From contig NZ_JALKBA010000016.1 in the NCBI RefSeq assembly GCF_023015805.1, positions 1-64,000 on the forward strand: 64,000 bases of DNA, in the 5' to 3' direction. Shown in pieces: positions 573 through 19,750 of this stretch. The DNA is from Cellulophaga sp. F20128. Lineage in GTDB: Bacteria > Bacteroidota > Bacteroidia > Flavobacteriales > Flavobacteriaceae. Position 1 is the first letter of the stretch. Every line of letters begins with the position of its first letter. The notes beneath the pieces are model-generated. The model saw only the letters and a program-made list of their open reading frames with translations. It made no database searches and was not told where the DNA came from. The translations under genes and the position numbers were made by a program.

Positions 573-1100
573 AGGTTGGTAGTTGGAGTTTTAATTTTAA
601 CGCACTTATAAATGGTTTGTTGTGAACTTTAAGCAACAATTTAACAAATATAAACCCTCCTATCTTAAAACAGCAATCGTTTTTATTGAAATTTCAATCG
701 CATAAACTACATTAGATTAGGTTTGATATATAAAAATATTTCATCTTTTAATTCATTCTTGTATTTTATTTATAAGTGTAATATGTACCTAGGTTTTTAT
801 TCTAGAATATAACTTTGATTAAATAGAATACTAAGTCGTCTTGAGGTTTAACAACAATTCTTTCGATATTATTCTTAGTTTCTAAAATCACCCTTACAAA
901 TAATCAATATCTAACTTTTATCAAACAAAACCTTTTATCATTCAATGAATTATTTTAATTTCTTTTATTTCCCTTCCGCCCTTTTTAAACGTTTTTAAAC
1001 GTAGGGCTGAATGTAGCTAAGCTCTGGATTTTTTTTAGTGTTGTCTAAATACGTTACAAAAAAGTTATAGTGCTTGTTTAAGTTACTTTAGTGAACTAGA
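573..1100. other. Gene-free stretch with repeat copy A
   Basis: No convincing gene is present. The right part (about 980-1100) is copy A of the local intergenic repeat. A tandem 10-mer (TTTTTAAACG twice) sits at about 983-1002. The left part is AT-rich and holds a minus-strand open stretch of about 29 codons near 810-900, too short to call. Confidence 0.6.
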
Positions 1101-1130
1101 CTAGGGCTTTTCATAGGATACGGACTTAGT
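980..1130 (-). repeat. Intergenic repeat, copy A
   Basis: This is one of six related junction elements. It contains the GTAGGGCTGAATGTAG box near 1000, a TTTTAGTGTTGTCTAAATAC core near 1034-1053 and GTGCTTGTTTAAGTTAC near 1071-1087. It lies downstream of the 1101-2003 gene and upstream of the gene starting at 572. It is the most diverged copy in the GTATC-GATAC palindrome. Confidence 0.6.
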
Positions 1131-2003
1131 CATTAAATTTTTCAATTTTCGTTCTTCTTTTAATCTTTTAATCATATTCTCAACTAAACCTCTTATTGAT
1201 TTTTCTTTATCATATTGACTTAAAAATTGTATCAGTTCCTTTTTTATTTTTTTATTTTGAACTAACATTTTTTTAGATAAATTTTGATTTGAAATACCAG
1301 CTTCTGAAATTAAATAGTCAATTATTAAAGTAAGCATATAACCTAGGTAAACAAACGGATTATAATATCCTTCAAGAGAATCATATATATATTTGTTATT
1401 TTCTCTAGTCCTATAATTTCCAGAAGAAATCATATTAAGATGAGTGTGTTCACACAAATATGGGTAGAATGATTTATGTAATTCAACTTCATTTTCAGAT
1501 TCCAAACTTGCAGCCATTTTAGAAACTCCAAGTCCAAAGCTTTCTATGTTTCCGGTATTCGGATTCACAATTTTATTCTTTTCCATTCTACCATTTTTAC
1601 TAACTGGATGTGAAAGCAAATTTGCTGAAACTCCTAAATCCTTATATGTGAAATGAAAAACTGCTTGTGGTGTTTTGGAAACATATTTAATAGCTAAATA
1701 ATTTTCATAAATTGTTCTTATAATTATTTGTGAATCTTCTTTTAAAAAATTTTCTGCTAATAAGAGAGACGCACTGCAAGATTTATAGCTTTTAAAAATT
1801 CCAAAATTTATAAAGTCTTGGAAAATGTCTTTAAACTCCACTTCATTTTGTTTTTTTGTAATGCAAACTACTTTACCGTTTTGGTCGAGTAATTTTTCAA
1901 AAAATGACATTTGTTGAACTATTAAATCTCTTAAATTTAGTATACTTTCCTTATCTGGAAGAATAAAGTCAGGAACTTCATCTATTGAATCTTGTTTTTT
2001 CAT
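1101..2003 (-). CDS. DUF5677-like hypothetical protein
   Basis: A 300-residue soluble protein. I do not recognise a function. The central part (about residues 75-205) is helical and contains SASLLLAENFLKEDS, RTIYENYLAIKYVSK and YPYLCEHTHLNM, a pattern like the DUF5677 family (a helical domain with conserved Arg, Glu and His). DUF5677 proteins are uncharacterised and are common in accessory islands. The C-terminus is Lys-rich (KNKKIKKELIQFL, IKRLKEERKLKN). The start is the first ATG (complement 2001-2003). The gene stands alone, with one copy of the intergenic repeat on each side, so it has the layout of an independent cassette. No phage or toxin motif is visible. Confidence 0.7.
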   Translation of the reverse strand: MKKQDSIDEVPDFILPDKESILNLRDLIVQQMSFFEKLLDQNGKVVCITKKQNEVEFKDIFQDFINFGIFKSYKSCSASLLLAENFLKEDSQIIIRTIYENYLAIKYVSKTPQAVFHFTYKDLGVSANLLSHPVSKNGRMEKNKIVNPNTGNIESFGLGVSKMAASLESENEVELHKSFYPYLCEHTHLNMISSGNYRTRENNKYIYDSLEGYYNPFVYLGYMLTLIIDYLISEAGISNQNLSKKMLVQNKKIKKELIQFLSQYDKEKSIRGLVENMIKRLKEERKLKNLMTKSVSYEKP

Positions 2004-2022
2004 TTTATTGAATTTATCATTT

Positions 2023-2172
2023 CCTGAACACTCGGCTATATGGAACCATGCTCTGGATTTCTTTAATGTTCTGTATCTAATTTACATAAAACTAAAAAAA
2101 GACAATAACGTTTGTTTAAATTACTTTATAGAATTGGATTAAGAAATTTATAGAGGATACGGTGCTGTAGCC
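2023..2172 (-). repeat. Intergenic repeat, copy B
   Basis: This copy has the GCTCTGGATTTCTTTAATG segment, CTGTATCTAATTTACATAAAA, then GACAATAACGTTTGTTTAAATTAC and GGATACGGTGCTG. Read on the minus strand it shows ATTG, 19 nt, TAAATT, a promoter-like pair that would transcribe the 1101-2003 gene. Confidence 0.65.
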
Positions 2173-2178
2173 AGTTAT

Positions 2179-2943
2179 TTAGTTCCATATTTCATTAGAT
2201 TCCGTTAAAATTACCGGAATTTTATTCGTGATTAATATTGTTTGTTCGTGTTGGGTTACATATCCTCCTTTGTTTCCAACTAAAGTCCAACCATCATGCA
2301 ATTCTACAGCCACAGTTGAGTTCGTTGAAATGAAAGTCTCTATGGCTACTGTGGTATTTACTTTAAATCGTTCTCTGTTACTTTTGACCCTGTAATTTAA
2401 AATATTTTCAGGCTCTTCGTGTAAACTTCTACCAACTCCGTGACCAGCCAAATTTTTAATAACTTTAAATCCTGATTTTTTAGCTTCAGTTTCAATTAAA
2501 TATCCAATTTCAGAAATTTTTACTCCGCCCTTGATATTGCTTATTGCCTTGCGTAAAATGTTTTTTGAAGCATCTACAAGAGGTTGGTGATTATGAATGT
2601 CTTTTCCAAGTACAAAAGAACCTCCATTATCGGACCAAAAACCATTTAATTCTGCTGACACATCAATATTAACCAAATCTCCTTCTTTCAGTATTCTTTT
2701 TTCTGATGGTATTCCGTGAGCTGCTTCTTCATTTACACTTATGCAAGCGTAACCCGGAAATCCATATGTTTCATAAGGTGCAGATTTTGCTCCATAACTT
2801 TTTAAAATACTACCTCCGTATTCATCTAGTTCTTTAGTTGACATTCCAACCTTAGCATATTCTCTCATTAATTTTAATGTAGTTCCAACAACTGCACTAA
2901 TTTTTTCCATTCCGATTAGTTCGGATTCTTTTGTTATTGACAT
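2179..2943 (-). CDS. map: Type I methionine aminopeptidase paralogue
   Basis: Removes the initiator Met from new proteins; cytoplasmic dinuclear-metal hydrolase. All five metal ligands and the active-site His are visible in order: AAHGIPS (substrate His), NIDVSAELNGFWSDN (two Asp), LAGHGVGRSLHEEP (His), AIETFIST (Glu) and QHEQTILI (Glu). I chose the ATG at 2943 (MSITKESELIG, 254 residues) over an upstream TTG at 3042, because the extra 33 residues would lie inside the repeat and match nothing in the family. A housekeeping map gene normally sits in the ribosomal-protein region, so this isolated copy between two intergenic repeats is probably an accessory paralogue. Such extra copies can replace the main enzyme or confer tolerance to inhibitors; that is inference. 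The family call is secure. Confidence 0.92.
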   Translation of the reverse strand: MSITKESELIGMEKISAVVGTTLKLMREYAKVGMSTKELDEYGGSILKSYGAKSAPYETYGFPGYACISVNEEAAHGIPSEKRILKEGDLVNIDVSAELNGFWSDNGGSFVLGKDIHNHQPLVDASKNILRKAISNIKGGVKISEIGYLIETEAKKSGFKVIKNLAGHGVGRSLHEEPENILNYRVKSNRERFKVNTTVAIETFISTNSTVAVELHDGWTLVGNKGGYVTQHEQTILITNKIPVILTESNEIWN

Positions 2944-2956
2944 TTTATTTTTTAAT

Positions 2957-3108
2957 TGGCTACAACGCAGGGCGAAACGTAGTTCGGCTTTTGCTTTTTT
3001 TAGTATTGGATATCGAAGATACCAAAAAACAAAAAAATGCAATGGAGCTTTTTTAAATTATTTAGTGAACTAGCCTTGGGCTTTTCAATGGATACCGTTT
3101 TGTGTTCC
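2957..3108 (-). repeat. Intergenic repeat, copy C
   Basis: A well preserved copy. It has GGCTACAACGCAGGGCGAAACGTAG at its right (downstream-gene) end in minus-strand terms, TTAGTATTGGATATCGAAGATACC, GCAATGGAGC and TTTAAATTATTTAGTGAACTAG. The minus strand reads ATTG (3040-3043), 18 nt, TATCTT (3016-3021), pointing at the map gene. Confidence 0.75.
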
Positions 3109-3669
3109 GTTTTTTTTACTAGTTTTTTTACTAGTTTTTTTATTGGTATTTAGTGTTTCATAATCATTTTCAAACATGCTCATAACTTCAACGGAGGGAG
3201 TTCTGATTTCATTTTCGGAATCACTATTAATTATTATTTCTCTCATATTTTGAACTTTCTTATTTTTCCAAAATCCTGCTTTTGTGAATCCAATTGCACA
3301 TATTTGACCATTCTGCTCAAAAGTTTGTCGATGATAAACCCATTTTTCATCTGAACCTTCTAGTTTTAGAGTAATATCAAATTTTTTAAATTTCTTTAAT
3401 GGTTTTTTGTATATTATTTTCTGAGATGCTAGAACACCAAACATTCCCTTTTTTATAGTATTGTCATACAATTTTGACCGAAAAACAACTTCGTATCTTA
3501 TTAAATCCATATAATAAAAATATTTCGAATTTGCCATATACCTTAAAGATTCACAATCCAATATATTCACTCTTCTTGTTCTAGTAAAATCAGAAGTTAT
3601 TTTGACTTTTTTCCAAAATATCCTTGATCCAGTGTAGATATAAATCATGTGTAACCAATAATAAATCAT
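3085..3669 (-). CDS. Acyl-CoA thioesterase-like (THEM6/4HBT hotdog) protein
   Basis: 194 residues. Features are SRIFWKKVKI, then NILDCESLRYMANSKYFYYM and DLIRYEVVFRSKLY, a GMFGVLASQKIIYKKPLKKF core and KWVYHRQTFEQNGQICAIGF. This order (Arg-x-x-Asp near the N-terminus, a mid-protein helix, and paired strands ending in VYHRQTF) matches the single-hotdog thioesterases related to eukaryotic THEM6 and 4-hydroxybenzoyl-CoA thioesterase-like proteins. They are expected to hydrolyse acyl thioesters, but the substrates of this branch are unknown. The C-terminal 40 residues are polar and low-complexity (NKKTSKKTSKKNG), beyond the usual domain. The extreme 3' end overlaps the outer part of repeat copy C. 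Single gene with its own repeat-borne upstream region. Confidence 0.75.
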   Translation of the reverse strand: MIYYWLHMIYIYTGSRIFWKKVKITSDFTRTRRVNILDCESLRYMANSKYFYYMDLIRYEVVFRSKLYDNTIKKGMFGVLASQKIIYKKPLKKFKKFDITLKLEGSDEKWVYHRQTFEQNGQICAIGFTKAGFWKNKKVQNMREIIINSDSENEIRTPSVEVMSMFENDYETLNTNKKTSKKTSKKNGTQNGIH

Positions 3670-3719
3670 TTTTGACTTTTAGTTTTGTAGCTTATTAGTT
3701 ATCTGGGAATCAAAATTAT

Positions 3720-3874
3720 TTACAACGCAGGGCTAAATAGATTTCCCCGATGTTTCGCGATTAATTCATTTAGTGATTAGTATGGAAGATACATAAAAAC
3801 ACACAAAAAGACAATAGTGCCAGTTTAAATTACTCTTATTAGATCATAACACAACATTTTAGCCGTTGTGCTGT
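3720..3874 (-). repeat. Intergenic repeat, copy D
   Basis: The clearest copy. TTTACAACGCAGGGCTAAATAG lies at one end and ACAACATTTTAGCCGTTGTGCTG at the other, so ACAACG/CGTTGT-type inverted ends bracket the element. Inside are TAGTGATTAGTATGGAAGATACAT and GACAATAGTGCCAGTTTAAATTAC. On the minus strand ATTG (3812-3815), 20 nt, TATCTT (3786-3791) reads toward the 3085-3669 gene. Confidence 0.75.
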
Positions 3875-3894
3875 TTCTGTGTTGATAAACTTTT

Positions 3895-4320
3895 TTAATT
3901 AAACGTAAAATCCACAAAATCAGTAGTTCCTGACTCTGTAATCGTAATTTCTTTTTCAGTTAAAGTTTCTGAATCTGCACTTATTTTAAGTTTGATATTG
4001 TAGGGTTCAAAAGAAACTCCAACTTCCCCTCCAGAATTATCTCTATAGGTAATATCTAATGTTGTTAAAAAAGCGATTTTTTGATTCAAATAATCTTTGG
4101 TAAAAGGTAAATGAGATTCGCCACTGGAAAAATCTGAAACATCTATCCCTTTTCCTTGTATGGCCAGTGTAATATCTGACTGTCTGTTATTATCCGAAGA
4201 TGTTATTACAAATGAAATATCTTTATTCTGAGGATAATTATCCCGTGGGTCATCGTCAGGTCCACAAGATACAGTTAAAAACACTACTGTAACTACTAGT
4301 AATAATTGTTTTTTAAACAT
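3895..4320 (-). CDS. Small lipoprotein of unknown function
   Basis: 141 residues. The N-terminus MFKKQLLLVVTVVFLTVSCG is a lipoprotein signal peptide with the lipobox TVSC and the acylated Cys at residue 19, followed by an Asp-rich GPDDDPRDN spacer that resembles Bacteroidota lipoprotein export signals. The mature part is predicted beta-rich (ISFVITSSDNN, SDITLAIQGKG, YNIKLKISADSE, EKEITITESG), consistent with one small Ig-like or beta-sandwich fold facing outward or into the periplasm. No family is recognised. It stands alone between repeat copy D and the 4493-5209 gene. Confidence 0.75.
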   Translation of the reverse strand: MFKKQLLLVVTVVFLTVSCGPDDDPRDNYPQNKDISFVITSSDNNRQSDITLAIQGKGIDVSDFSSGESHLPFTKDYLNQKIAFLTTLDITYRDNSGGEVGVSFEPYNIKLKISADSETLTEKEITITESGTTDFVDFTFN

Positions 4321-4492
4321 ATTTTTTATTGTTTAAATGAATGAATTTTTAAAAATTAGATTTCAAAATCTATACCAAATATTATAAATTTTTTACAATT
4401 AAGCGAATAATCTAAAGTAATCAAGTCTTGGTTTAATGTAGCTTTACAGGCACTACCCTTTTAGATTAACCTTATATTTCTCAATATTCTAT

Positions 4493-5209
4493 TCATTTAA
4501 ATTTATCACTTTCGTCCATATTAGCTTGTACCTTGTTGGTAATAGTATTTTTTAATTTTTCATTCAAGGTTCCTATGAATTCCTTACGCTCAATAAGATC
4601 ATTTAGAGTGGTTACAAAAGTCTTTGTTTCATTTAAATTTGGAAATGATAACTTTCCTTTTGCAATTGAATATGCTATAAGGACGTTGAAATAATTATAT
4701 ATCAAAATCAACTTTTGAATATAATCGGTCTTGACAATCGTAAAACCCATTCTTTGCGCTGTTCTATCGTTTATGATATAACTTGTTCCACGTACATTTA
4801 TGTTTTCACAATTATTGTTTTCTTTTTCTTCAATGAGGTTCAAAAGACCTTCTAAATATTGTTGAATTATAAAATTAGTTCTTTGTTTTCCATTCAATTT
4901 TAGATCAATTACAAATACATAATCAAACAATGTTCCTCCGTGTATTTTAATCAATCCATTTTTAGGTTTTTCAGATAAGAATAGTGGCGAATAATAAATT
5001 AAACCTCCGCTCTTTTTTAAGGAAGGTGTATCGAAGAAAGGCGCAATTATAGATAGCGTTATTGGGATGGTTAAAATTGCCAATAAATAAGTTTCTGTTT
5101 TCCAAGAAATAACTAGAAATATCAGAATTAGCGTAAATGCAATAATACCTATCCATACTTGAATTTGATTTCGCTCTTTTTTCGATTTTATGTAAAATTT
5201 GTGTTTCAA
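4493..5209 (-). CDS. Two-TM membrane protein, unknown function
   Basis: 238 residues. Two hydrophobic segments near the N-terminus (about residues 18-36 and 41-57: IGIIAFTLILIFLVISW and AILTIPITLSIIAPFF) are followed by about 170 cytoplasmic residues containing FDYVFVIDLKLNGKQRTNFIIQ and LLNLIEEKENNN. The only available start in frame before the TM segments is a TTG (complement 5207-5209); an in-frame stop lies 11 codons upstream and no ATG falls between. Either it uses TTG or the 5' end has been damaged. The upstream gap holds a fragment like the repeat family (TATAGGGCTAAATG near 5234). Function unknown. Confidence 0.65.
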   Translation of the reverse strand: MKHKFYIKSKKERNQIQVWIGIIAFTLILIFLVISWKTETYLLAILTIPITLSIIAPFFDTPSLKKSGGLIYYSPLFLSEKPKNGLIKIHGGTLFDYVFVIDLKLNGKQRTNFIIQQYLEGLLNLIEEKENNNCENINVRGTSYIINDRTAQRMGFTIVKTDYIQKLILIYNYFNVLIAYSIAKGKLSFPNLNETKTFVTTLNDLIERKEFIGTLNEKLKNTITNKVQANMDESDKFK

Positions 5210-5380
5210 TTGATTTCTTGAATTAATACCATTATAGGGCTAAATGTCATTTCTGAATTACAGAACTCTTATCCTTGGCGAAAACTTACTTGTTTTTTAA
5301 ACCCATTTCTTTGTTAGCATCAGTTTTTTACCTGTATGTTGATGGTTCTATCACAACCATTGGGGTACCTTGTTCCTCTA

Positions 5381-5758
5381 TTATTTGATTAGTACTGAAT
5401 ACTTTTCTCTATTTTCATAAATAACCCAAAGGTTTATAGCAAATAAGGTTAATGCAATAGGTAAACCAGACGGTGTGGAAATGATATTCGTTAACATTAT
5501 ACCTATCATAACCGGAAAAATTACAACGGCACCGAGTGCTCTTGTTTTAGGAATGGCAAACAATAAACCCCCAAAAACTTCAGCAAAACCCACCAATGGC
5601 ATAAGCCAACTTATCTTCATAAATGCAGTCATTAATTTTACCATATTTTCGGGTAAATCTTCAGGCATTGGCATATAATTAAAAAATTTATTCAACCCTG
5701 CGTTGATAAACATAAGCCCGAATAATAGGCTTACAACGAAAATTATTTTCTTTTTCAT
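5381..5758 (-). CDS. DoxX family membrane protein
   Basis: 125 residues with four predicted membrane segments: FVVSLLFGLMFINAGLNKFF, ISWLMPLVGFAEVFGGLLFA, ALGAVVIFPVMIGIMLTN and LPIALTLFAINLWVIY. The N-terminal GLMFINAGLNKF and GFAEVFGGLLF motifs are typical of DoxX/DoxX-like proteins. These are small inner-membrane proteins linked to redox or thiosulfate/quinone chemistry in a few cases and unknown in most. Last gene of a tight four-gene operon, 5 bp after the second AHSA1 gene, so it is probably controlled by the ArsR-type repressor that heads the operon. Confidence 0.85.
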   Translation of the reverse strand: MKKKIIFVVSLLFGLMFINAGLNKFFNYMPMPEDLPENMVKLMTAFMKISWLMPLVGFAEVFGGLLFAIPKTRALGAVVIFPVMIGIMLTNIISTPSGLPIALTLFAINLWVIYENREKYSVLIK

Positions 5759-5763
5759 TTTTA

Positions 5764-6267
5764 TTATTTTTTAAAGCTTACTAATAATTCATCCAACTTC
5801 TCAAGCGTTGAAAGCATACCTTCTTCCATTCCCATATTGATTACAGTTTCAAGGTCTTTTAATGAATCATAATTAACCACAGTTGTAACTGTAGTATTTT
5901 TGCCTTTGTCATTAAAAGTCACTTTCCAATTTGCTGTAGGCAACTCATGATTTACTGAGCCTTTACTATCACAAAAGGAATCGATTGTTCGATAATAATC
6001 AATAGGGTTTACCTCGTAATATTCGGTATAACCCCAATATTCAGTTCCTTCTGGGTCAATCATTGCATAATGCCAATGACCACCATTTTTAAAATCCATT
6101 GATTTTGTCTTTGTAGAAAATGGTTTAGGCGAAAACCATTGATCCAGTAACTCTGGTTTGGTATAACAATCCCAAACTAATTGTCTTGCAGCATTAAACT
6201 CACGAACAATTGTAAGGGAGCTGTTTTCTTTATCAATTAAGAAATCGAATTGTAAATTACTTTTCAT
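5764..6267 (-). CDS. SRPBCC/AHSA1-domain protein
   Basis: 167 residues of the START/SRPBCC fold (AHSA1, Hsp90-ATPase activator homologue 1 group). Family marks are SLTIVREFNAARQLVWDCYT at residues 17-36, PELLDQWFSPKPFSTKTKSM, GGHWHYAMIDPEGTEYWGY and the C-terminal NMGMEEGMLSTLEKLDELL helix. These domains form a hydrophobic pocket for a small ligand; in bacteria they are usually of unknown function and often sit beside ArsR regulators. The start overlaps the end of the preceding paralogue by 11 bp, so translation is probably coupled. It is clearly a tandem duplicate of the 6257-6778 gene. Confidence 0.88.
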   Translation of the reverse strand: MKSNLQFDFLIDKENSSLTIVREFNAARQLVWDCYTKPELLDQWFSPKPFSTKTKSMDFKNGGHWHYAMIDPEGTEYWGYTEYYEVNPIDYYRTIDSFCDSKGSVNHELPTANWKVTFNDKGKNTTVTTVVNYDSLKDLETVINMGMEEGMLSTLEKLDELLVSFKK

Positions 6268-6778
6268 TTTTCTTGTTTTTAATTGTAACTAATAAATTGT
6301 CTAATTGATTTAGGCCTAATATAAAACCATCTTTAAAGCCCATTTCTATTATTTTTTCTAAAGCTGTTAAAGAAACAAGTGTTAAGGTTATATGAACAAT
6401 AGTGCTTTTAGGGCTATCTTTAAAGCTATTTTCCCAATGTATTTTTGAAAATTCCGTTTCTATAAAATTTCCTTGTTCATCGCAAAAGCCATCCCATCCA
6501 GTATACATTTTTTGCACTTCAATATTTTCGTAATCAAACCTATTCCAATGCATTTTATTCTCAGGGCTTATCATAGCATAATGCCATATTCCACCTTCTT
6601 TAAAATCTAAAGTTTTAGTTTGATTTCGATAGGGTTTGGGTGCCCACCATTGGTCAAGAATTTCCGGGGTTGTCCAGGCCTTCCAAACTAAAGGAAGATT
6701 CGCGTCGAACTCACGTTTTATGTGAATGGTATTATTTTCCTTATTGACAGTGAAGTCAAATAATAAATTAGATTTCAT
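6257..6778 (-). CDS. SRPBCC/AHSA1-domain protein
   Basis: 173 residues, paralogue of the gene that follows it. Both begin MKSNL-FDF and share the block LVWxxxTxPExLDQWxxPKP, the GGxWHYAMIxPE strand pair and the C-terminal MGxxxG-LxxLxxLL helix. It carries [19 protein letters not shown] and [24 protein letters not shown]1-type domains bind hydrophobic ligands; no catalytic residues are known for this branch. It overlaps the ArsR gene by 11 bp upstream and the second AHSA1 gene by 11 bp downstream. The duplication followed by divergence suggests the two pockets bind different ligands or form a heterodimer; that is inference. Confidence 0.88.
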
Positions 6779-7100
6779 TATTTTTATTTTTTAGGTTAGC
6801 TAAAACATTATCTAATTGATTGAAACGATTTTCCCAAATTTTCCTGAATTGCTGCAACCATTTGTCAATTTCTTTCATTTTATCAATTTTAATTTGATAA
6901 TGAATTTCTCTGCCTTGTTGGTTTGCTTCAATCAAATCGCACTCATTTAATATTTGTATGTGTTTGGAAATTGTAGGTCTGGAAGTGTCAAAATTAGAAG
7001 CAATGTCTCCGGCTGTCATCGTCTGTGTCGTTAGCAAAACCAATATGGCTCTTCGCGTTGGGTCTGCAATTGCTTGAAAAATATCTCGTCTTAATCTCAT
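6768..7100 (-). CDS. ArsR-family transcriptional repressor
   Basis: 110-residue winged-helix regulator. The N-terminal [20 protein letters not shown], the recognition region [20 protein letters not shown] and the wing ([17 protein letters not shown]) are the standard ArsR/HTH_20 layout. The metal-binding Cys motif (ELCVCDL type) of classical ArsR/SmtB is absent, so it belongs to the non-metal group that usually travels with AHSA1 genes. First gene of the ArsR-AHSA1-AHSA1-DoxX operon and probably its autorepressor. The sequence before the start contains a direct repeat (AGTTATTTGACTAC and AGTCATTTAACTAC on the + strand at 7106-7119 and 7132-7145), which is a plausible operator. Confidence 0.88.
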
Positions 7101-7105
7101 TATGA

Positions 7106-7145
7106 AGTTATTTGACTACAAATATATATGAAGTCATTTAACTAC
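7106..7145 (-). promoter_or_regulatory. Candidate ArsR operator (direct repeat)
   Basis: Two imperfect copies of AGTYATTTRACTAC lie 26 bp apart (7106-7119 and 7132-7145) directly before the ArsR start. They differ at two positions. Each half also contains a TAG/TTGACTA-like inverted core. Position and repetition suggest the binding site of the operon's own repressor. Confidence 0.4.
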
Positions 7146-7338
7146 GCAAATTTTAGATAAAAATATGTAGTTGAAGGTTCTTTTAGGGAGGGATGTTTCA
7201 ATTAGTGCTAAAGGTTTGGACCTAGAAGTGCTAGACATTAGCAACCACAAATCATGTTATTGTCATAAATGGTTTCGAGGGATAAATCTGTTTTTCTATT
7301 CAATTAAGCAATTCATGATAGGTGCTAATACAGCAGAT

Positions 7339-8391
7339 TTATTCTGCCCTCCCGTATACTTTTTCACTTGGAAGATAAATTGTAAACACTGTCCCTATAT
7401 TTTTACTGCTGTCAAATTTTATTGTTCCTCCTAGAACTTTAACCGTATGTCTAACTGTATAAAGTCCAAGTCCACTTCCACTGGCTTGGTGTGTAGCACG
7501 AAAAAACATTTTAAAAACATCTTTTTGTAAATTGGTTGGTATTCCAATTCCATTATCTGTAACCATAATTTTAACCCCACCGTTTTCGTCTTCAACAGAT
7601 ATTTTCACATATGAATCTTTATTGTTTTCTTTTTTGTACTTGATAGTGTTATCTAGTAAATTTTCCATCAATGAAATAATAAGGGACTTATCGCTATAAA
7701 ATTTTCGTTCTGTAGAAATGTTTTGTTCAAACCTAATTTCATCATACTGGTTCATATATTCAAGCGATTTCAGAACAGATTTAATAACTTGACAAAAATC
7801 AATCAAATGAATTGTTTTTTTGCCTTGACGTATACTCATAGTCTCAACCAGTTTCAGCAATATAGTGTCTAATCGTTCGGTTTCCTGTTTTATCGTTAAT
7901 AGGTAATCCTTCGCAGTTTCAAGGCTCTTCATGTCGTAGTCTGCAGCATTGATAAGTCCTAAAACACTAGCAATGGGCCTTCTCATATCATGTGAAACTT
8001 TATAAATGTAGGTTTCGAGTTCGTCAGTGGCTTCTTTAAGGTCGGTAATATTCACAGCTGATAATCCCAAGTAATCTCCTACCTTAAATATACTTACTCG
8101 TGACATATAATTTCCTAAACTTGGATGCAATCTCACTTCATCTATAACAACTGGAATTCCTGTTTTTAGTACTTCCTTGTATATTTCATACCGTTTTGTC
8201 ACTTCAATACCTGGACTTATTTCAGTAACATTTTTTCCAACGATTTGATCTCTTTTAAGTCGAAGTATGCGGAGAAGAGCTTCATTGGCATCAACAAAAT
8301 TTAAGTCCTTATCAAAAATAGCAAGTGTCTCTTGCGTATTGTTAAAAAACGCTTCTCGTAAACTAGTTGTGTCCTTGTGTTCATTTGCCAT
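7339..8391 (-). CDS. PAS-domain sensor histidine kinase
   Basis: 350 residues, soluble, no membrane segment. The PAS domain (about 10-115) contains LAIFDKDLNFVDANEALLRI and GKNVTEISPG. A short coiled helix (TDELETYIYKVSHDMRRP) carries the phospho-acceptor His134. The HATPase domain shows ENLLDNTIKY (N box), VTDNGIGIP (G1) and GSGLGLYTVRHTV (G2). It autophosphorylates on His134 using ATP; the signal bound by the PAS domain and the cognate response regulator are unknown, as no regulator gene is adjacent. Orphan kinases of this type are common in flavobacteria. The start ATG (8389-8391) lies next to repeat copy E. Confidence 0.9.
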   Translation of the reverse strand: MANEHKDTTSLREAFFNNTQETLAIFDKDLNFVDANEALLRILRLKRDQIVGKNVTEISPGIEVTKRYEIYKEVLKTGIPVVIDEVRLHPSLGNYMSRVSIFKVGDYLGLSAVNITDLKEATDELETYIYKVSHDMRRPIASVLGLINAADYDMKSLETAKDYLLTIKQETERLDTILLKLVETMSIRQGKKTIHLIDFCQVIKSVLKSLEYMNQYDEIRFEQNISTERKFYSDKSLIISLMENLLDNTIKYKKENNKDSYVKISVEDENGGVKIMVTDNGIGIPTNLQKDVFKMFFRATHQASGSGLGLYTVRHTVKVLGGTIKFDSSKNIGTVFTIYLPSEKVYGRAE

Positions 8392-8397
8392 TATTCA

Positions 8398-8535
8398 ACT
8401 CGTTGCTAACACTAGGCAAAACGTAGATCTCCAAAAATTCCGAGACTATATTTTTTTTAGTGATTAGTATCTAAGATACATAAAAATTACAGGACTAGAT
8501 CAAATTACTTTTTAGTTGATAATGACTTATACGTT
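8398..8535 (-). repeat. Intergenic repeat, copy E
   Basis: Contains CGTTGCTAACACTAGGCAAAACG, TTTTTTTAGTGATTAGTATCTAAGATACAT and CAAATTACTTTTTAG. The inner GTATCTAAGATAC is a near-perfect palindrome. The minus-strand TATCTT element points at the histidine-kinase gene. The -33-like ATTG is not conserved in this copy. Confidence 0.7.
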
Positions 8536-8615
8536 CTCCAAAAACAATTATTCCCAAACCTAAAAAAGTAAACCGCCAAAAAGGCGGTTACAGCAATCAT
8601 TATTTTATAAATCAT
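8505..8615 (-). CDS. Possible 36-residue membrane peptide
   Basis: A short open frame starts at the ATG complementary to 8613-8615 and encodes MIYKIMIAVTAFLAVYFFRF followed by a polar tail (GNNCFWRTYKSLSTKK). One membrane helix with a positively charged C-terminus is a usual layout for small inner-membrane peptides. It overlaps the hairpin at 8571-8589, so either the peptide or the terminator reading may be the biologically relevant one. No homologue is recognised. Confidence 0.3.
   Translation of the reverse strand: MIYKIMIAVTAFLAVYFFRFGNNCFWRTYKSLSTKK
8571..8589 (-). terminator. Hairpin terminator after the DUF5694-like gene
   Basis: Perfect 7-bp stem (AACCGCC/GGCGGTT) with a 5-nt loop. 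On the minus strand it is followed by TACTTTTTT. It lies about 65 bp past the stop of the 8652-9479 gene, as expected for an intrinsic terminator. Confidence 0.55.
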
Positions 8616-8651
8616 GTCCTTGGGCAAGGGTTCCCATCTTTGTACTTAAAC

Positions 8652-9479
8652 CTAATCCGTATAGTCTGTATAGTTAGTTGTATTTTCCAAAATATATTTA
8701 GGACTATTTCCAATGAAGATATCAAAATAGGCAGTGTGTGTTGCTCCCATAATAATTAAAACCCGGTCGTTTTTTGTTAAAGGAATATCTGAAAAATTCG
8801 TATACATTCTCAAATTTCTTTTATAGAAATCTGCAATTATATCAGCGCCTTCAAAACCATTTGGAGTATGCATAGTTGCTAAAAAATTATATAAATCAAA
8901 TGTTTCCATTTTGTACTTAGTCGTATTTATTTCTGCAAATTGTTCAAGAAGCGGTTTTTTGTTTTGAATTTCATAACTCCCCATAATATTTTGAACATAA
9001 ATACTGTCAGAAGCATTTTTATTAGCCAATTCAATAAGTTTAGGATAGTCAAATCCGATGGGGTTATCAATACCATATATTTTTTTTGTTCCACTCAACC
9101 GAGCAACTTCAAGTCCAATTACATTCACTTCCTCAGAATAGTTAATTCGGCTCGATTGATCTGTCTTGTATTTTTGAAAAGTTTGATTCATAAATTCAGT
9201 ACTTTCAGGTGGTATTTCTACACAAATTATAGTTGGTTTAAACTTTACCAGTTGTTCTACAATTTTCTGTATGTCTGCTTTACCCTTTATGCTATTTACG
9301 TCTGTAATTGAAGAATAAGCATCAGTACTACCGCTTAGATGTACCGAGCCAAAATTCAATACTCGTATTTTATTCGTATCCGTTTTCTCAGTTTTAGTCT
9401 CCTTTACTAGGTTCACTTTTGATTCTGGATTACAGGCTAACATTGTCAGTGTAAAAAAGGAAAGAAGCAGGTTTTTCAT
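8652..9479 (-). CDS. DUF5694-like lipoprotein (TraB/GumN-like fold)
   Basis: 275 residues. The signal peptide MKNLLLSFFTLTMLACNPES has the lipobox MLAC with Cys16. The mature part starts with IRVLNFGSVHLSG, then KADIQKIVEQLVKFKPTIIC with VEIPPE, GLEVARLSGTKKIYGIDN, and near the end RNLRMYTNF and RVLIIMGATHTAYF. The paired His/Glu motifs (FGSVHL, EIPPE, GATHTAY) are the signature of DUF5694 and the wider TraB/PrgY/GumN group, thought to be metal-dependent peptidase- or esterase-like folds; the activity of this branch is unknown. Anchored in a membrane facing the periplasm. Single gene followed by a hairpin terminator. Confidence 0.8.
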   Translation of the reverse strand: MKNLLLSFFTLTMLACNPESKVNLVKETKTEKTDTNKIRVLNFGSVHLSGSTDAYSSITDVNSIKGKADIQKIVEQLVKFKPTIICVEIPPESTEFMNQTFQKYKTDQSSRINYSEEVNVIGLEVARLSGTKKIYGIDNPIGFDYPKLIELANKNASDSIYVQNIMGSYEIQNKKPLLEQFAEINTTKYKMETFDLYNFLATMHTPNGFEGADIIADFYKRNLRMYTNFSDIPLTKNDRVLIIMGATHTAYFDIFIGNSPKYILENTTNYTDYTD

Positions 9480-9727
9480 AAATTTTTAAGATGTTATTTT
9501 GATCTAAGAAAAGAAAAGGTAAAATAGATTTTACGATATTTCTGGATTATTTTAATTTTAGTTTTACAAACCGAATATACATAAAAATTTAAAAGAATAT
9601 AGTGTTTGATTATAAGGCCAAAGGTATTGGTGACTTTTGCTAAAAACACGTAATACGATACACCATTTCATGATTGATTTTGACCAATTACCTAGCTAAT
9701 TCTGAAGAATTTTAGTCGATCAATTTC
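9480..9727. other. Short gene-free stretch
   Basis: AT-rich with no supported gene. It lies between the DUF5694-like gene and the last readable codon of the broken DUF4369 gene, and may once have been the 3' part of that gene, but no thioredoxin motif (CxxC) remains. Confidence 0.5.
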
Positions 9728-10177
9728 CTACTGTTTTTGTTGCGAAAGATTCATTAAAATTTGCGCTAAAGAATCTCTCATGGTATAATTTTCTTCTGTT
9801 AGACTTTAAGAATAATTAAAATCTCCCTGAGTTTTTGAACCACTGATATTTACGTTCCAAGGAAGGTCTGATATATCTCCTTTAACAGTAATATTTTCAT
9901 TTCCAATTAGAAGGTAGGTGTAGTAGAAATTTTTATCAAGTATTGTGTTTAACCAAATTTGTACTGACGGACTTTCTAGGTTTCCTTCAAATTTATAGGT
10001 GTTATTCTTAACAATCGCACTATCAAAAACGGCATCTGTTGCTAGGTTTCTTAAATAAAATTTAGTCCCATCAGGAAATCCAGTTACTTGTCCATAAATT
10101 ATGAAATTTCCCTTTTTCTTTTCATTATAGTTACGAGTAGTTATTGAAGTAATAATGCTCACAAATAAAATTAACAT
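9728..10177 (-). pseudogene. Broken DUF4369 (TlpA/thiol-disulfide oxidoreductase N-terminal) gene
   Basis: The readable 123-residue part has an N-terminal hydrophobic segment (MLILFVSIITSITT) and a DUF4369 domain: NFIIYGQVTGFPDGTKFYLR, FDSAIVKNNTYKFEGNLESP and NENITVKGDISDLPWNVNIS. In intact proteins this domain is followed by a helical linker and a TlpA-like thioredoxin domain. Here TAA at 9806-9808 ends it after DFNYS. In the same frame the next codons still read SLTEENYTMRDSLAQILMNL then SQQKQ before a TAG at 9728-9730, exactly the linker expected. So the gene has at least two nonsense codons and has lost its thioredoxin part. Probably inactive. Confidence 0.75.
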
Positions 10178-10212
10178 GATTAATTTCTAGAATTCTTTTT
10201 AATATTCTCTAA

Positions 10213-10350
10213 TGGCTAACAAGACAGGGATACGTATCGTTCCCAAATATTTTAGGAATAGACTTTTTAGTGTTGCGTACCGAAGATATATAAAAACCAA
10301 AATTGGCAATGACCTTGTTAATTTCCTTTTTATTTGAAAAAGCTAACTTT
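10213..10350 (-). repeat. Intergenic repeat, copy F
   Basis: Contains GGCTAACAAGACAGGGATACG, CTTTTTAGTGTTGCGTACCGAAGATATA and GGCAATGACCTTGTTAATTTCC. The minus strand reads ATTG (10307-10310), 18 nt, TATCTT (10283-10288) toward the DUF4369 pseudogene. It is the last recognisable copy, next to the metE terminator. Confidence 0.7.
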
Positions 10351-10389
10351 TATAAATCGAAGGATAGTATTCATTACCCAAAAAAACCA

Positions 10390-16439: not shown

Positions 16440-19400
16440 ATGGAAGTAAAAGTTTGGAAGGAAAGCGTGATAATACCAACTTACGAAATTGGGGAGCCTG
16501 AAAAAAACCCATTATTTTTAGAGAATAGAGTCTATCAAGGAAGTTCTGGTAAAGTGTATCCAAATCCAGTAATAGAAAAAATAAGTGACATAAAAACTGA
16601 TAAAGTTTGGCATGCCGTTTATTTAGAGAATGATTTTATTAAAATAATGATATTACCTGAATTAGGGGGAAGGGTTCAAATGGCATTTGACAAGACTAAA
16701 AACAGGCATTTCGTTTATTACAATCAAGTTATAAAGCCAGCATTAGTAGGGCTTACTGGTCCTTGGATTTCTGGAGGAATTGAATTTAATTGGCCACAGC
16801 ACCATAGACCTTCCACATATAGTCCTGTAGATTTTGATATTGAGGAACATTCGGATGGAAGTAAAACAGTTTGGTGCAGCGAAGTGGAACGTATGTTTAG
16901 AACCAAAGGGATGGCTGGTTTTACACTTTATCCAGATAAAGCTTATATGGAAACTAAAGTAAAGCTTTACAACCGCACTCCACAAACTCAAACCTTTTTA
17001 TGGTGGGCTAATCCAGCCGTTAAAGCAAACGACCATTACCAATCTGTTTTTCCTCCAGATGTTAATGCCGTATTTGATCATGGAAAACGAGATGTATCAG
17101 ACTTTCCAATAGCAACAGGAACCTATTACAAAGTAGATTATGCCCCAGGAACTGATATTTCATGGTATAAAAATATTCCAGTACCAACCTCCTATATGGC
17201 TATAAACAGTGATTTTAACTTTGTAGGTAGCTATGAAAATGATACTAAAGGTGGGTTATTACATGTAGCAAACCATCATATATCTCCAGGTAAAAAACAA
17301 TGGACATGGGGTAATGGCGAATTTGGTAAGGCTTGGGATAAAAATTTAACTGATGAAGATGGCCCTTATATTGAACTTATGTGTGGAGTATATACTGATA
17401 ATCAACCCGATTTTTCATGGTTACACCCTTATGAAGAAAAATCATTTTCGCAATATTTTATGCCCTATCGTGATTTAGGAATTATAAAAAATGCCACTAA
17501 GGAAGCCTTGTTGAATTTAGAATTTTATGGAGAAACAGCTATAGTTAAGTTTTACACCTTAGGTGTTTTTAACAATGCCAAAATTAAACTTCAAGCTAAA
17601 GGACAGATTTTTCTTGAGGAAACCTTAGACACATCACCTAAAAGTTCATACGAAAAGAAGGTTATAATTGATACAACAGTACCATTAACTGATTATATAC
17701 TTCAATTAGAAGATTGCAACGGACAAGACTTGGTTAGTTACCAGCCCAAAGATTTTTCAAATAAAACTATGCCTTGTCCGGCTAAAGCAGCTAAGTCTCC
17801 TAAAGCGATTAAAAGCATTGAACAATTATATTTAAGAGGATTGCACCTAGAGCAGTATAGACATGCTACCTATAATCCTAAAGACTACTATGAAGAGGCT
17901 TTACGTAGAGAACCAACTGATGTAAGGTGCAATAATGCTATGGGGTTATTACTGTTACGTTGTGGGCAATTTCAAATGGCAGAACCCTATTTTAGAAAAG
18001 CCATAAAAACTTTAATTGAAAGAAACCCAAACCCTTACAACGGCGAGCCTTATTATAACTTAGGGCAATGCCTAAAATATCAGGAAAAGGATGAGGAGGC
18101 TTACAAAATTTTTTATAAATCTGCATGGAATAACGAGTGGCAAGATGCTTCATATTTCCATTTAGCACAATTAGATACTAAAAAAGGAAAATTTAATTCA
18201 GCACTAGATTTAGTAGAAAAATCATTGTTAAAAAATTGGCATAACCACAAAGCGAGAACATTAAAAATTGCATTATTAAGGAAGATCGGACATCTAGAAA
18301 AAGCTTTAACATTAATAGATGACAGCCTAATTATTGATCGATTTAACTTTGGAGCACTTTTTGAAAAATATCTAATAAGTACTAACAAAATCCATTTAAA
18401 TCAACTCCAAGAATTAATGAGAAACAATATAGATAACTATATTGAATACTCGTTAGATTACGCTTCAGCTGGTCTATATACAGAAGCCACATCATTTCTT
18501 AATTATGGCCTGATTTACAATACTGAAAATCCAATGGCTTACTATTTTAAATCTTGGTTTGAAGCAAAAAAAGGCAATACAACGGCTACTTTAAAATTGT
18601 ATAAAAACAGAGACCCTAAATATTGTTTTGCTTACAGATTGGAAGCCATAGCTGCATTAAAATCAGCCATATCAATAAATCCTAATGATGCCAAGGCTTT
18701 ATATCATTTAGGAAATTTATGGTATGATAAAAAACAGTATAGCGAAGCAATCTTATGTTGGGAAAAATCAATATCTATAGATGACAATTTCCCTACAGTG
18801 CACCGAAATTTAGCATTGGCCTATTTTAACAAATTAGATAAGAAAAAAGAAGCATTATCTCAATTAGAAAAAGCATTTGAACTAGACCCAACGGATGCAA
18901 GAATATTAATGGAGCGAGATCAATTATACAAAAGACTAAATTACCCCATAGAACATCGTTTGAAGATCTTAGATAAACACCCCAATTTGGTCAATTTTAG
19001 GGATGATCTATATTTGGAAAAATGTACACTCCACAATATATTAGGTAATAATTCTTTAGCATTAAAAATGTTAGTAGAAAGGAAATTTCATCCATGGGAA
19101 GGTGGAGAAGGTAAAGTTACTGGAATGTATTTATACGCCTTAATAGGTTTAGCTCAAGATTCCATCTTTAAGAGCAACTATAAAGAGGCAATTCAATTTT
19201 TAGACAAATTAGAAACTTATCCTGATAATTTAGGAGAAGGCAAGTTATACGGTACCCAAGAAAATGATATTAATTATTGGTATGGATGCGCATATGAAGG
19301 GCTTAACCAAAAGGACAAGGCTTTATATTATTGGAAAAAAGCCTCTGAAGGACTAACAGAACCTAGTGCCGCTGTTTTTTACAACGATCAGCAACCAGAT

Positions 19401-19736
19401 AAAATATTTTATCAAGGTCTAGCTCTATTAAAGTTAAAGAGAACTACAGACGCTGAAACAAGATTTAACAGTTTAAAAAACCATGGAAAATCACACTTAA
19501 AGGATAACGTAAAAGTAGATTACTTTGCCGTTTCACTTCCGGATCTTCTGATTTGGGAAGATAATCTTAATAAAAGAAATGAAATCCATTGCCGCTATTT
19601 GATAGGATTAGGAAATTTGGGGCTTGGTAGTATTAAGGATGCTTTGTATGAGTTTAAAAAAGTACTGGAATTAGACAAAAACCACTTCGGTACACTAATG
19701 CATAAAAAAATTATTAATAACATTTTCACTAAATAA
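16440..19736 (+). CDS. DUF5107-domain protein with TPR array
   Basis: 1098 residues, no signal peptide, so cytoplasmic. Residues about 45-340 form the DUF5107 beta-sandwich: FIKIMILPELGGRVQMAFDK, GPWISGGIEFNWPQHHRPST, LYNRTPQTQTFLWWANPAVK and WTWGNGEFGKAW. The ELGGRV motif and fold pattern resemble galactose-mutarotase-like domains. From about residue 440 to the end there are at least ten tetratricopeptide-like helical pairs (for example AMGLLLLRCGQFQMAEPYF, ALYHLGNLWYDKKQYSEAIL, VHRNLALAYFNKLDKKKEAL). DUF5107-TPR proteins recur beside sugar porters in Bacteroidota, but their reaction is not known to me. The first Met follows the MFS stop by 12 bp. Possible jobs are sugar epimerisation or isomerisation, or sugar-dependent scaffolding. 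Confidence 0.9.
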   Translation: MEVKVWKESVIIPTYEIGEPEKNPLFLENRVYQGSSGKVYPNPVIEKISDIKTDKVWHAVYLENDFIKIMILPELGGRVQMAFDKTKNRHFVYYNQVIKPALVGLTGPWISGGIEFNWPQHHRPSTYSPVDFDIEEHSDGSKTVWCSEVERMFRTKGMAGFTLYPDKAYMETKVKLYNRTPQTQTFLWWANPAVKANDHYQSVFPPDVNAVFDHGKRDVSDFPIATGTYYKVDYAPGTDISWYKNIPVPTSYMAINSDFNFVGSYENDTKGGLLHVANHHISPGKKQWTWGNGEFGKAWDKNLTDEDGPYIELMCGVYTDNQPDFSWLHPYEEKSFSQYFMPYRDLGIIKNATKEALLNLEFYGETAIVKFYTLGVFNNAKIKLQAKGQIFLEETLDTSPKSSYEKKVIIDTTVPLTDYILQLEDCNGQDLVSYQPKDFSNKTMPCPAKAAKSPKAIKSIEQLYLRGLHLEQYRHATYNPKDYYEEALRREPTDVRCNNAMGLLLLRCGQFQMAEPYFRKAIKTLIERNPNPYNGEPYYNLGQCLKYQEKDEEAYKIFYKSAWNNEWQDASYFHLAQLDTKKGKFNSALDLVEKSLLKNWHNHKARTLKIALLRKIGHLEKALTLIDDSLIIDRFNFGALFEKYLISTNKIHLNQLQELMRNNIDNYIEYSLDYASAGLYTEATSFLNYGLIYNTENPMAYYFKSWFEAKKGNTTATLKLYKNRDPKYCFAYRLEAIAALKSAISINPNDAKALYHLGNLWYDKKQYSEAILCWEKSISIDDNFPTVHRNLALAYFNKLDKKKEALSQLEKAFELDPTDARILMERDQLYKRLNYPIEHRLKILDKHPNLVNFRDDLYLEKCTLHNILGNNSLALKMLVERKFHPWEGGEGKVTGMYLYALIGLAQDSIFKSNYKEAIQFLDKLETYPDNLGEGKLYGTQENDINYWYGCAYEGLNQKDKALYYWKKASEGLTEPSAAVFYNDQQPDKIFYQGLALLKLKRTTDAETRFNSLKNHGKSHLKDNVKVDYFAVSLPDLLIWEDNLNKRNEIHCRYLIGLGNLGLGSIKDALYEFKKVLELDKNHFGTLMHKKIINNIFTK

Positions 19737-19750
19737 AAACACCTACTAAT

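Follow-up and report, generated by a model that had tools for sequence, protein, structure and literature searches.

Intergenic repeats of a Cellulophaga contig as probable decayed attC-like sites of an integron-like cassette system in Flavobacteriaceae

What are the repeats that lie between the single genes at one end of a contig of Cellulophaga sp. F20128, and what ties them to those genes? The stretch analysed here (the window: 64,000 nucleotides, positions 1 to 64,000 of NZ_JALKBA010000016.1) starts at the first base of that contig, C22 in our numbering (G, C and L numbers are our handles for genomes, contigs and loci), so that an array found in it may extend past the contig edge. An earlier note, made from the letters alone, had described an intergenic repeat present in six copies of the same orientation and had read the region as a cassette array built by recombination. 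In our judgement the repeats are, with a probability of roughly 0.88, decayed attC-like recombination sites, mostly worn and of a divergent subtype, which would belong to a family-wide, integron-like flavobacterial cassette system with an apparently different recombinase.

All six copies were recovered by leave-one-out profiles in which five copies serve to find the sixth (E 4e-7 to 2e-19 in the window), and all lie on the + strand, in agreement with the shared orientation given in the earlier note. Because each left-out copy is found by the profile of the other five, the similarity of the copies exceeds a chance likeness of AT-rich DNA, the objection that the note had itself raised. The ACAACG-type ends that it described for copies C and D are present in the sequence. 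The copies carry a conserved palindrome and are placed 5' of genes; Rfam at gathering score gave no match on the window. The 4.17-Mb genome has nine good copies in all, contigs C114, C28 and C40 each carrying a further one besides the six of the window. The sites of the window are given below, with R' and R'' denoting the boxes that open and close a cassette.

984..1120, + strand: window-type site A (leave-one-out profiles and model search); genes are read on the minus strand
2014..2159, + strand: window-type site B (leave-one-out profiles and model search)
2950..3094, + strand: window-type site C (profiles and model search), with the R' box of the map-like cassette at its left end
3713..3868, + strand: window-type site D (profiles and model search), with its ACAACGCAGGGC end intact and without a clear R'' partner
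8394..8535, + strand: window-type site E (leave-one-out profiles and model search)
10208..10360, + strand: window-type site F (leave-one-out profiles and model search)
9504..9612, + strand: weak seventh match, the remnant of a site (model search, E 3.5e-5)
5229..5325, + strand: degenerate half-site between D and E, seen by eye and without a model match, with the R''-like box at 5313 as its end

Units of the window type are found at E <= 1e-4 in 16 of 397 genomes of the same family (Flavobacteriaceae), that of strain F20128 included, and several of them lie at contig ends, as expected where repeated DNA breaks assemblies. In one relative (G420) an 8.5-kb contig has five such units between single genes, and four cassettes on it each extend from a box to the reverse complement of that box (e.g. 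GTTGTACGCA ... TGCGTACAAC), the box being specific to the gene. Among the 21 units in rows whose continuation resembles the window type, 14 have a gene-specific partner with at least 12 of 15 letters at a distance of 250-2000 bp, as against 38 of 420 with swapped boxes. By analogy this is the layout of integron cassettes, with the R'' box after a gene pairing with the R' box that opened that cassette. As to whether the repeat flanks different genes in relatives, a check that the earlier note had proposed, related units bound single-gene cassettes there.

Most of what can be said about such cassettes comes from sites of another kind, to which we refer as main-class sites. Their cassettes start with a gene-specific GTTRNNNNNN and end with its reverse complement, NNNNNNYAAC, the constancy of GTTR and YAAC being partly by construction since both were required by the search. 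The canonical R boxes of integrons read RYYYAAC / GTTRRRY. A consensus of G|TTRRRY is likewise given in the accessible text of PMC9892861. In the main-class R boxes YAAC / GTTR alone is constant and the full canonical consensus does not hold, which bears out the earlier note's remark that canonical R boxes fit poorly. The 119 candidate sites between consecutive cassettes, some odd-length rows of which are probably false pairs, have bodies of 116-121 nt in 79 cases and of 178-186 nt in 18, and in 277 of the 283 cassettes with an open reading frame (ORF) of at least 80 aa this frame is co-directional. L arms paired with their own partner reach a mean score of 11.4 compared to 5.7 with swapped partners, a value that was matched in 0 of 2000 permutations (58 non-redundant sites). 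RNAalifold, when applied to 60 non-redundant sites, yielded 18 consensus pairs consisting of the box core and, after a three-letter spacer, arms of 6, 4 and 4 pairs with recurrent mismatched positions between them; in 13 of the 18 pairs both partners have changed, and at one position A-U occurs 25, G-C 18 and C-G 17 times. This covariation supports a folded, attC-like hairpin as the predicted form of main-class sites.

A covariance model of 60 main-class sites from 30 loci (R2, built without phage sequence) finds sites at E <= 1e-4 in 262 of 299 Flavobacteriaceae genomes, a survey which includes the F20128 and training genomes and in which per-genome counts saturate because 11 candidates were scored per genome; 16 of the 20 genomes listed as having no match are smaller than 2 Mb. 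Matches number 35 in Winogradskyella ursingii, 31 in Seonamhaeicola aphaedonensis and 32 in A. onchidii (Algibacter, now Cognatitamlana onchidii), a training genome. Seven of ten other Bacteroidota genomes have 2 to 27 sites and three have none, while 0 of 13 non-Bacteroidota genomes has sites, many of these having given few candidates, probably since they are GC-rich. Rfam at gathering score returned one tRNA only from seven array loci. Inside main-class sites a motif TTT[AG]CTA is strand-specific, being found in 21 of 60 on one strand and in 0 on the opposite one (mean in shuffles 3.0), and it may serve the following cassette as a promoter element; a promoter role of the palindrome is only a lead.

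Many of these arrays start next to a recombinase gene. Its stop codon is followed, after 27-135 bp, by a TAT-containing stretch (e.g. TATACAATT or TATCCAATT) that precedes the box and varies between clades, and then by the first cassette with its GTTR...YAAC ends. Of 40 loci, which represent recombinase matches from 38 genomes picked across the score range, 26 have a cassette pair within -60..+200 bp of the recombinase stop, compared with a shuffle expectation of 1.55 in total. L241/L114, L133/L161 and L259/L179 are pairwise the same places and were each counted once. Judged by position and sequence, an attI-like insertion point is present. W. ursingii, S. aphaedonensis and A. onchidii (L179, = G185) present the same picture; in Rufibacter and some other Bacteroidota the number of pairs is one to three, single pairs being weak evidence. 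A box mismatch at position 11 is visible in unfiltered cassette pairs downstream of recombinases; its presence in 306 of 306 filtered cassettes follows from the construction of the filter and is not used here.

The genome of strain F20128 itself contains such loci. R2 has 40 matches in it at E <= 1e-3, one of them a training site, on contigs including C44, C17, C11, C53, C28 and C35, and on C35 a recombinase gene (18694-19836) is followed after 47 bp by an attI-like point and two cassettes. Nine stretches of other contigs of this genome hold 26 cassettes of the usual pattern with both box cores intact, pairs of 3,974 bp and 519 bp on L228 and one cross-pair on L227 having been left out of this number. 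The window was described in the earlier note as lacking an integrase, and locally this holds, as tblastn of the window with the recombinase family found no member; it does not hold for the genome as a whole, given the recombinase, attI-like point and cassettes on C35, nor for relatives, whose recombinases adjoin arrays. On C21 (L231 1381-1560), 19 codons and a stop that resemble the recombinase C-terminus (EIYTHVANRSLMEIKDLLS, read by eye) precede an attI-like point and cassettes, whereas tblastn of the C21 stretch with the F20128 recombinase found nothing; the contig reads like an integron-like element that lost its recombinase. A further recombinase, below the XerC and XerD cut-offs, is encoded inside the array contig C44 (L226 1202-2047) on the strand opposite to the sites.

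The array recombinase, a tyrosine recombinase, measures 355-393 aa and has one domain more than usual at its N-terminus. As modelled by AlphaFold for W. ursingii (mean pLDDT 86, pTM 0.57), this is an alpha/beta domain in front of the usual two domains. Among solved structures, those of XerA / Xer-type (PDB 5hxy, 4a8e) come closest to the recombinase, in sequence as well as in fold, across its core-binding and catalytic domains. An initial suspicion from a motif that the N-terminal domain is HARP-like was dropped, as Pfam gave nothing significant and the Foldseek ranking was driven by the Xer/integrase cores. Three array recombinases score 189-205 bits in split stretches against the IntI family TIGR02249, whose cut-off is 265, and the residues between the two aligned blocks number 65 in VchIntIA (2a3v) but 22 in a clade III protein. 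None of 15 aligned proteins has an insertion at the position of the additional domain, a domain that is described as defining for IntI in the accessible text of PMC9668308. As far as these alignments go, the array recombinase is without the IntI-specific additional domain (around patch III). A canonical IntI above the TIGR02249 cut-off was found in 1 of 247 Bacteroidia genomes, that of strain F20128 not being among them, in a survey that scored at most 8 candidates per genome and undercounts split matches, as is evident from its showing no TIGR02249 match in F20128 although the recombinase of this strain reaches 205 bits in two stretches. NF040815, 'site-specific tyrosine recombinase/integron integrase', is the best fit among NCBIfam families and the F20128 protein passes its cut-off; this annotation comes near the truth. 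In a tree of 51 proteins two real IntI group together (98/94), apart from three groups of array recombinases; since the deep branches stay open and the bootstrap had not converged, an origin independent of IntI is not proven. Next to window-type units, PF00589 proteins are found in G261, G380, G386 and G420. Clade II (G266, G420, G386 and G380) has its recombinases divergent from the nearest cassettes or sites, which are found upstream and on the opposite strand.

But do the cassettes move? A search among 306 cassettes from the loci fetched revealed 17 homologous pairs. Eleven pairs are at least 96% identical, and in 11 of 11 the downstream bodies agree as well (0.97-1.00), while the upstream flanks are at random level in nine of the 11 (0.43-0.61; random mean 0.52); the two exceptions (upstream 0.83 and 1.00) resemble block duplications. 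These 11 pairs come from four genomes and hence are not independent. In one genome (G120) a cassette is present four times, with one copy placed right at attI, and the identity of the copies begins at GTT. From these alignments the duplicating unit is R'-gene-R''-body, that is, the gene together with its downstream site.

For the window, the map-like gene provides the corresponding case. An 89% identical copy of its cassette lies at C11:93911-94717 of the same genome, the homology of the two copies begins with GTTGTAGC and ends with GGCTACA, and the flanks are unrelated on either side, so that the boundary coincides with the R boxes. This recurrence in a second array, together with the cassettes bounded by related units in relatives, bears out the recombination-built array of the earlier note. 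In G007 the map-like gene is a cassette in a third setting, and in the other nine same-genus map-like loci whose flanks were inspected no box pair was seen. The note had also asked whether relatives keep the gene order and the spacers: by DNA-level comparison the window order is kept in 0 of 17 same-genus relatives, and the array survives this check. Sixteen of the 17 have a DNA match, and the matches are single genes or fragments at separate places except in G016, in which the map-like and DUF5694 genes stand in the same order about 1.4 kb apart, as compared to 5.7 kb in the window.

The genes of the region are co-directional and unrelated in function, as noted earlier. Counting ORFs from 110 aa upwards, the minus strand holds ten between 1101 and 8391, along with those at 8652-9479 and 9806-10177, and the sole + strand ORF of this length in the region (8940-9311, 123 aa) is nested inside 8652-9479. 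Of ten minus-strand ORFs compared with Pfam, eight fall into unrelated families, namely DUF5677, M24 peptidase, 4HBT_2, DoxX, AHSA1 (twice), histidine kinase and DUF5694, and two have no match. The genes and cassettes are:

1101..2003, - strand: DUF5677 gene between sites A and B (ORF list and Pfam); its frame extends into site A
2164..2966, - strand: M24 peptidase (map-like) cassette of 803 bp, with its own inverted repeat at its ends and the 89% copy in array C11
2954..2966, - strand: R' box GTTGTAGCCAATT, start of the map-like cassette (box-pair scan)
2164..2176, - strand: R'' box AACTGGCTACAGC, end of the map-like cassette (box-pair scan), with one mismatch in the AAC core
3085..3669, - strand: 4HBT_2 thioesterase-like gene between sites C and D (ORF list and Pfam)
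5313..8410, - strand: possible larger cassette with DoxX, two AHSA1-domain genes, a small ORF and a histidine kinase, the boxes of which match at 9/13 only
8652..9479, - strand: DUF5694 gene between site E and the weak remnant (ORF list and Pfam)

Several observations weigh against assigning the window to the system just described. Folding of the whole window copies is not clearly better than that of shuffles, R2 finds no match in the window (best E 0.5), and a convincing box pair is present in one window cassette only, the map-like one. Outside the window, 14 of the 40 recombinase loci lack a first cassette (five with <1 kb and nine with >1 kb downstream), the link between clade II recombinases and arrays comes from four genomes, and the six homologous cassette pairs below 85% identity, one of them map-like, have downstream bodies with an agreement of 0.45-0.72 (random: mean 0.55, 95th percentile 0.71). 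A simple integron model does not predict such diverged bodies of older pairs; gene and site seem to travel together at first, the site body being exchanged later and the box kept. The window array itself is largely dead, missed as it is by the main site model and left with one clear box pair. Could its copies then be dispersed intergenic repeats, a promoter or terminator unit or an element like a miniature inverted-repeat transposable element, copied before unrelated genes which themselves are immobile? Their position 5' of genes, their conserved palindrome and their undistinguished folding would suit such a repeat, as would the strand bias of the promoter-like TTT[AG]CTA in main-class sites. 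However, gene-specific inverted repeats at gene ends would then be unexpected, and so would duplicated units of gene and site with unrelated upstream flanks and a map-like cassette that ends at R boxes in two arrays, and we regard this explanation as very improbable. Alternatively, the window-type units might be a separate element that shares no more than its neighbourhoods with the main attC-like sites. R2 misses the window, and the model of window-type units (R1) does not recover the main-class sites on the contigs of the F20128 genome; weak matches of R1 in G003 and G005 were set aside as being like coding DNA. On the other hand, both kinds of site alternate in one array of G420, occur together on contigs C28, C40 and C114 of strain F20128 and bound cassettes by the same box rule. 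It is from these three observations that we derive the kinship of the two, and a separate element appears unlikely to us.

The remaining alternative, an ordinary integron whose IntI and attC were merely overlooked, has the layout in its favour, with a recombinase, an attI-like point, co-directional single-gene cassettes and gene-specific R boxes, as well as the integron integrase among the nearest NCBIfam names. Moreover, such sites occur in the Polaribacter phage P12002L (L344), where R2 finds ten (E 1.7e-13 to 6e-5, several of 53-65 nt). The accessible text of PMC9892861 reports a CALIN (a term of IntegronFinder for a cluster of attC sites without an integrase) in this phage, whose attC2 is recombined with attI1 by IntI1 via the bottom strand and not via the top strand, attC1 not having been verified; there the phage sites are treated as integron attC, with neither a flavobacterial recombinase nor a host array. 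If attC2 should be one of the ten R2 matches, sites of this kind would be usable as folded single strands, and by IntI1. Against an ordinary integron stand the TIGR02249 scores well below the cut-off, the short distance between the two aligned blocks, the rarity of canonical IntI in Bacteroidia and its failure to appear in F20128, and the tree, which sets the two real IntI apart, its deep branches being unresolved. We give this explanation a low probability and retain decayed attC-like sites of an integron-like system as the best account of the window.

How such a system would compare with known ones can be outlined from its parts. By analogy it would work like an integron, yet not a canonical one, failing as it does on the additional domain, the IntI cut-off and the full R boxes. 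It shares with integrons a tyrosine recombinase beside the array, an attI-like insertion point, co-directional single-gene cassettes, cassette-specific R'/R'' boxes with a GTT/AAC core, hairpin sites with R and L arms and an unpaired spacer, and a mobile unit of gene and downstream site. It differs in its recombinase, which is without the IntI additional domain, has a further domain at its N-terminus and, in the main clade, is encoded in the direction of the array; the R boxes read GTTRNNN and not GTTRRRY, the L arm has recurrent mismatched positions 4 bp apart, and most sites measure about 116-121 or 178-186 nt. The window array may be likened to a CALIN, for which at least two attC sites and no nearby integrase are required: no recombinase stands beside its cassettes, and its units are homologous to those that bound cassettes elsewhere, but the main model misses them, they are not canonical attC and mostly decayed, and other contigs carry a recombinase and intact arrays. 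With XerA and other Xer-type proteins the recombinase has the core-binding and catalytic domains in common; unlike them it has about 80-100 extra N-terminal residues and is linked to cassette arrays. On the model of integrons, the recombinase would recognise the folded single strand of a site and cut at GTT, and cassettes would circulate as excised circles and be inserted at attI. The window would hold an old array that has lost most site function and whose recombinase has either disappeared or is encoded on another contig, its units being a divergent subtype with R'' halves that mostly no longer pair.

There is, we believe, an even chance that Bacteroidota have a second integron lineage, in which a Xer-like recombinase with an N-terminal domain of its own takes up and shuffles single-gene cassettes via folded sites of their own kind, and which is present in most Flavobacteriaceae and has gone unseen since integron searches demand the IntI domain. 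According to the accessible text of the IntegronFinder 2.0 paper (PMC9024848) complete integrons are very rare in Bacteroidetes, with one in Salinibacter ruber M1 besides those in Chlorobi and Ignavibacteriae, and Bacteroidota are named among the phyla with integrons in that of a review (PMC8618304). In the open-access literature, outside of which most subscription papers and preprints lie, no paper among those listed by our searches deals with flavobacterial or non-IntI cassette arrays, the P12002L sites (PMC9892861) excepted; through these, some of the site class may have been published before. Confirmation of the system would mean that standard searches miss cassette shuffling in a large group of marine and soil bacteria, that the IntI additional domain is dispensable for this style of recombination, and that a second solution is at hand for comparing with IntI how folded DNA sites are recognised.

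Mobile replicons were searched as well. A phage collection gave no match to the recombinase at 1e-40. In P12002L, a lytic phage, short site matches lie near methyltransferase genes. A Chryseobacterium plasmid (NZ_CP041688.1, L343) encodes a recombinase 39% identical to that of strain F20128 and annotated tyrosine recombinase/integron integrase, which is followed by a box, cassettes and three R2-supported sites. Matches were also obtained in 48 Acinetobacter plasmids, two among the matches listed being 55% identical over the C-terminal 63%. One Acinetobacter plasmid (L342, NZ_CP041297.1 17361-28068) has tet(X3) immediately after the gene of a shortened relative of the recombinase, and no box pair or site was detected around the latter gene.

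Two minor observations concern the neighbourhood of window-type sites. A long unit in G420 that had been taken for a single 570-bp site was replaced by two sites found by the model, the second at E 0.02-0.05 only, with an ORF-less piece of about 240 bp between them; in L060 (G420:C6) gene cassettes alternate with a similar ORF-less piece of about 240 bp between two sites, possibly a promoter-carrying cassette. In the window, a stretch of about 80 bp adjoining site E (8563-8644), which is unrelated to the six copies, has many occurrences in same-genus genomes (74-78% identity).

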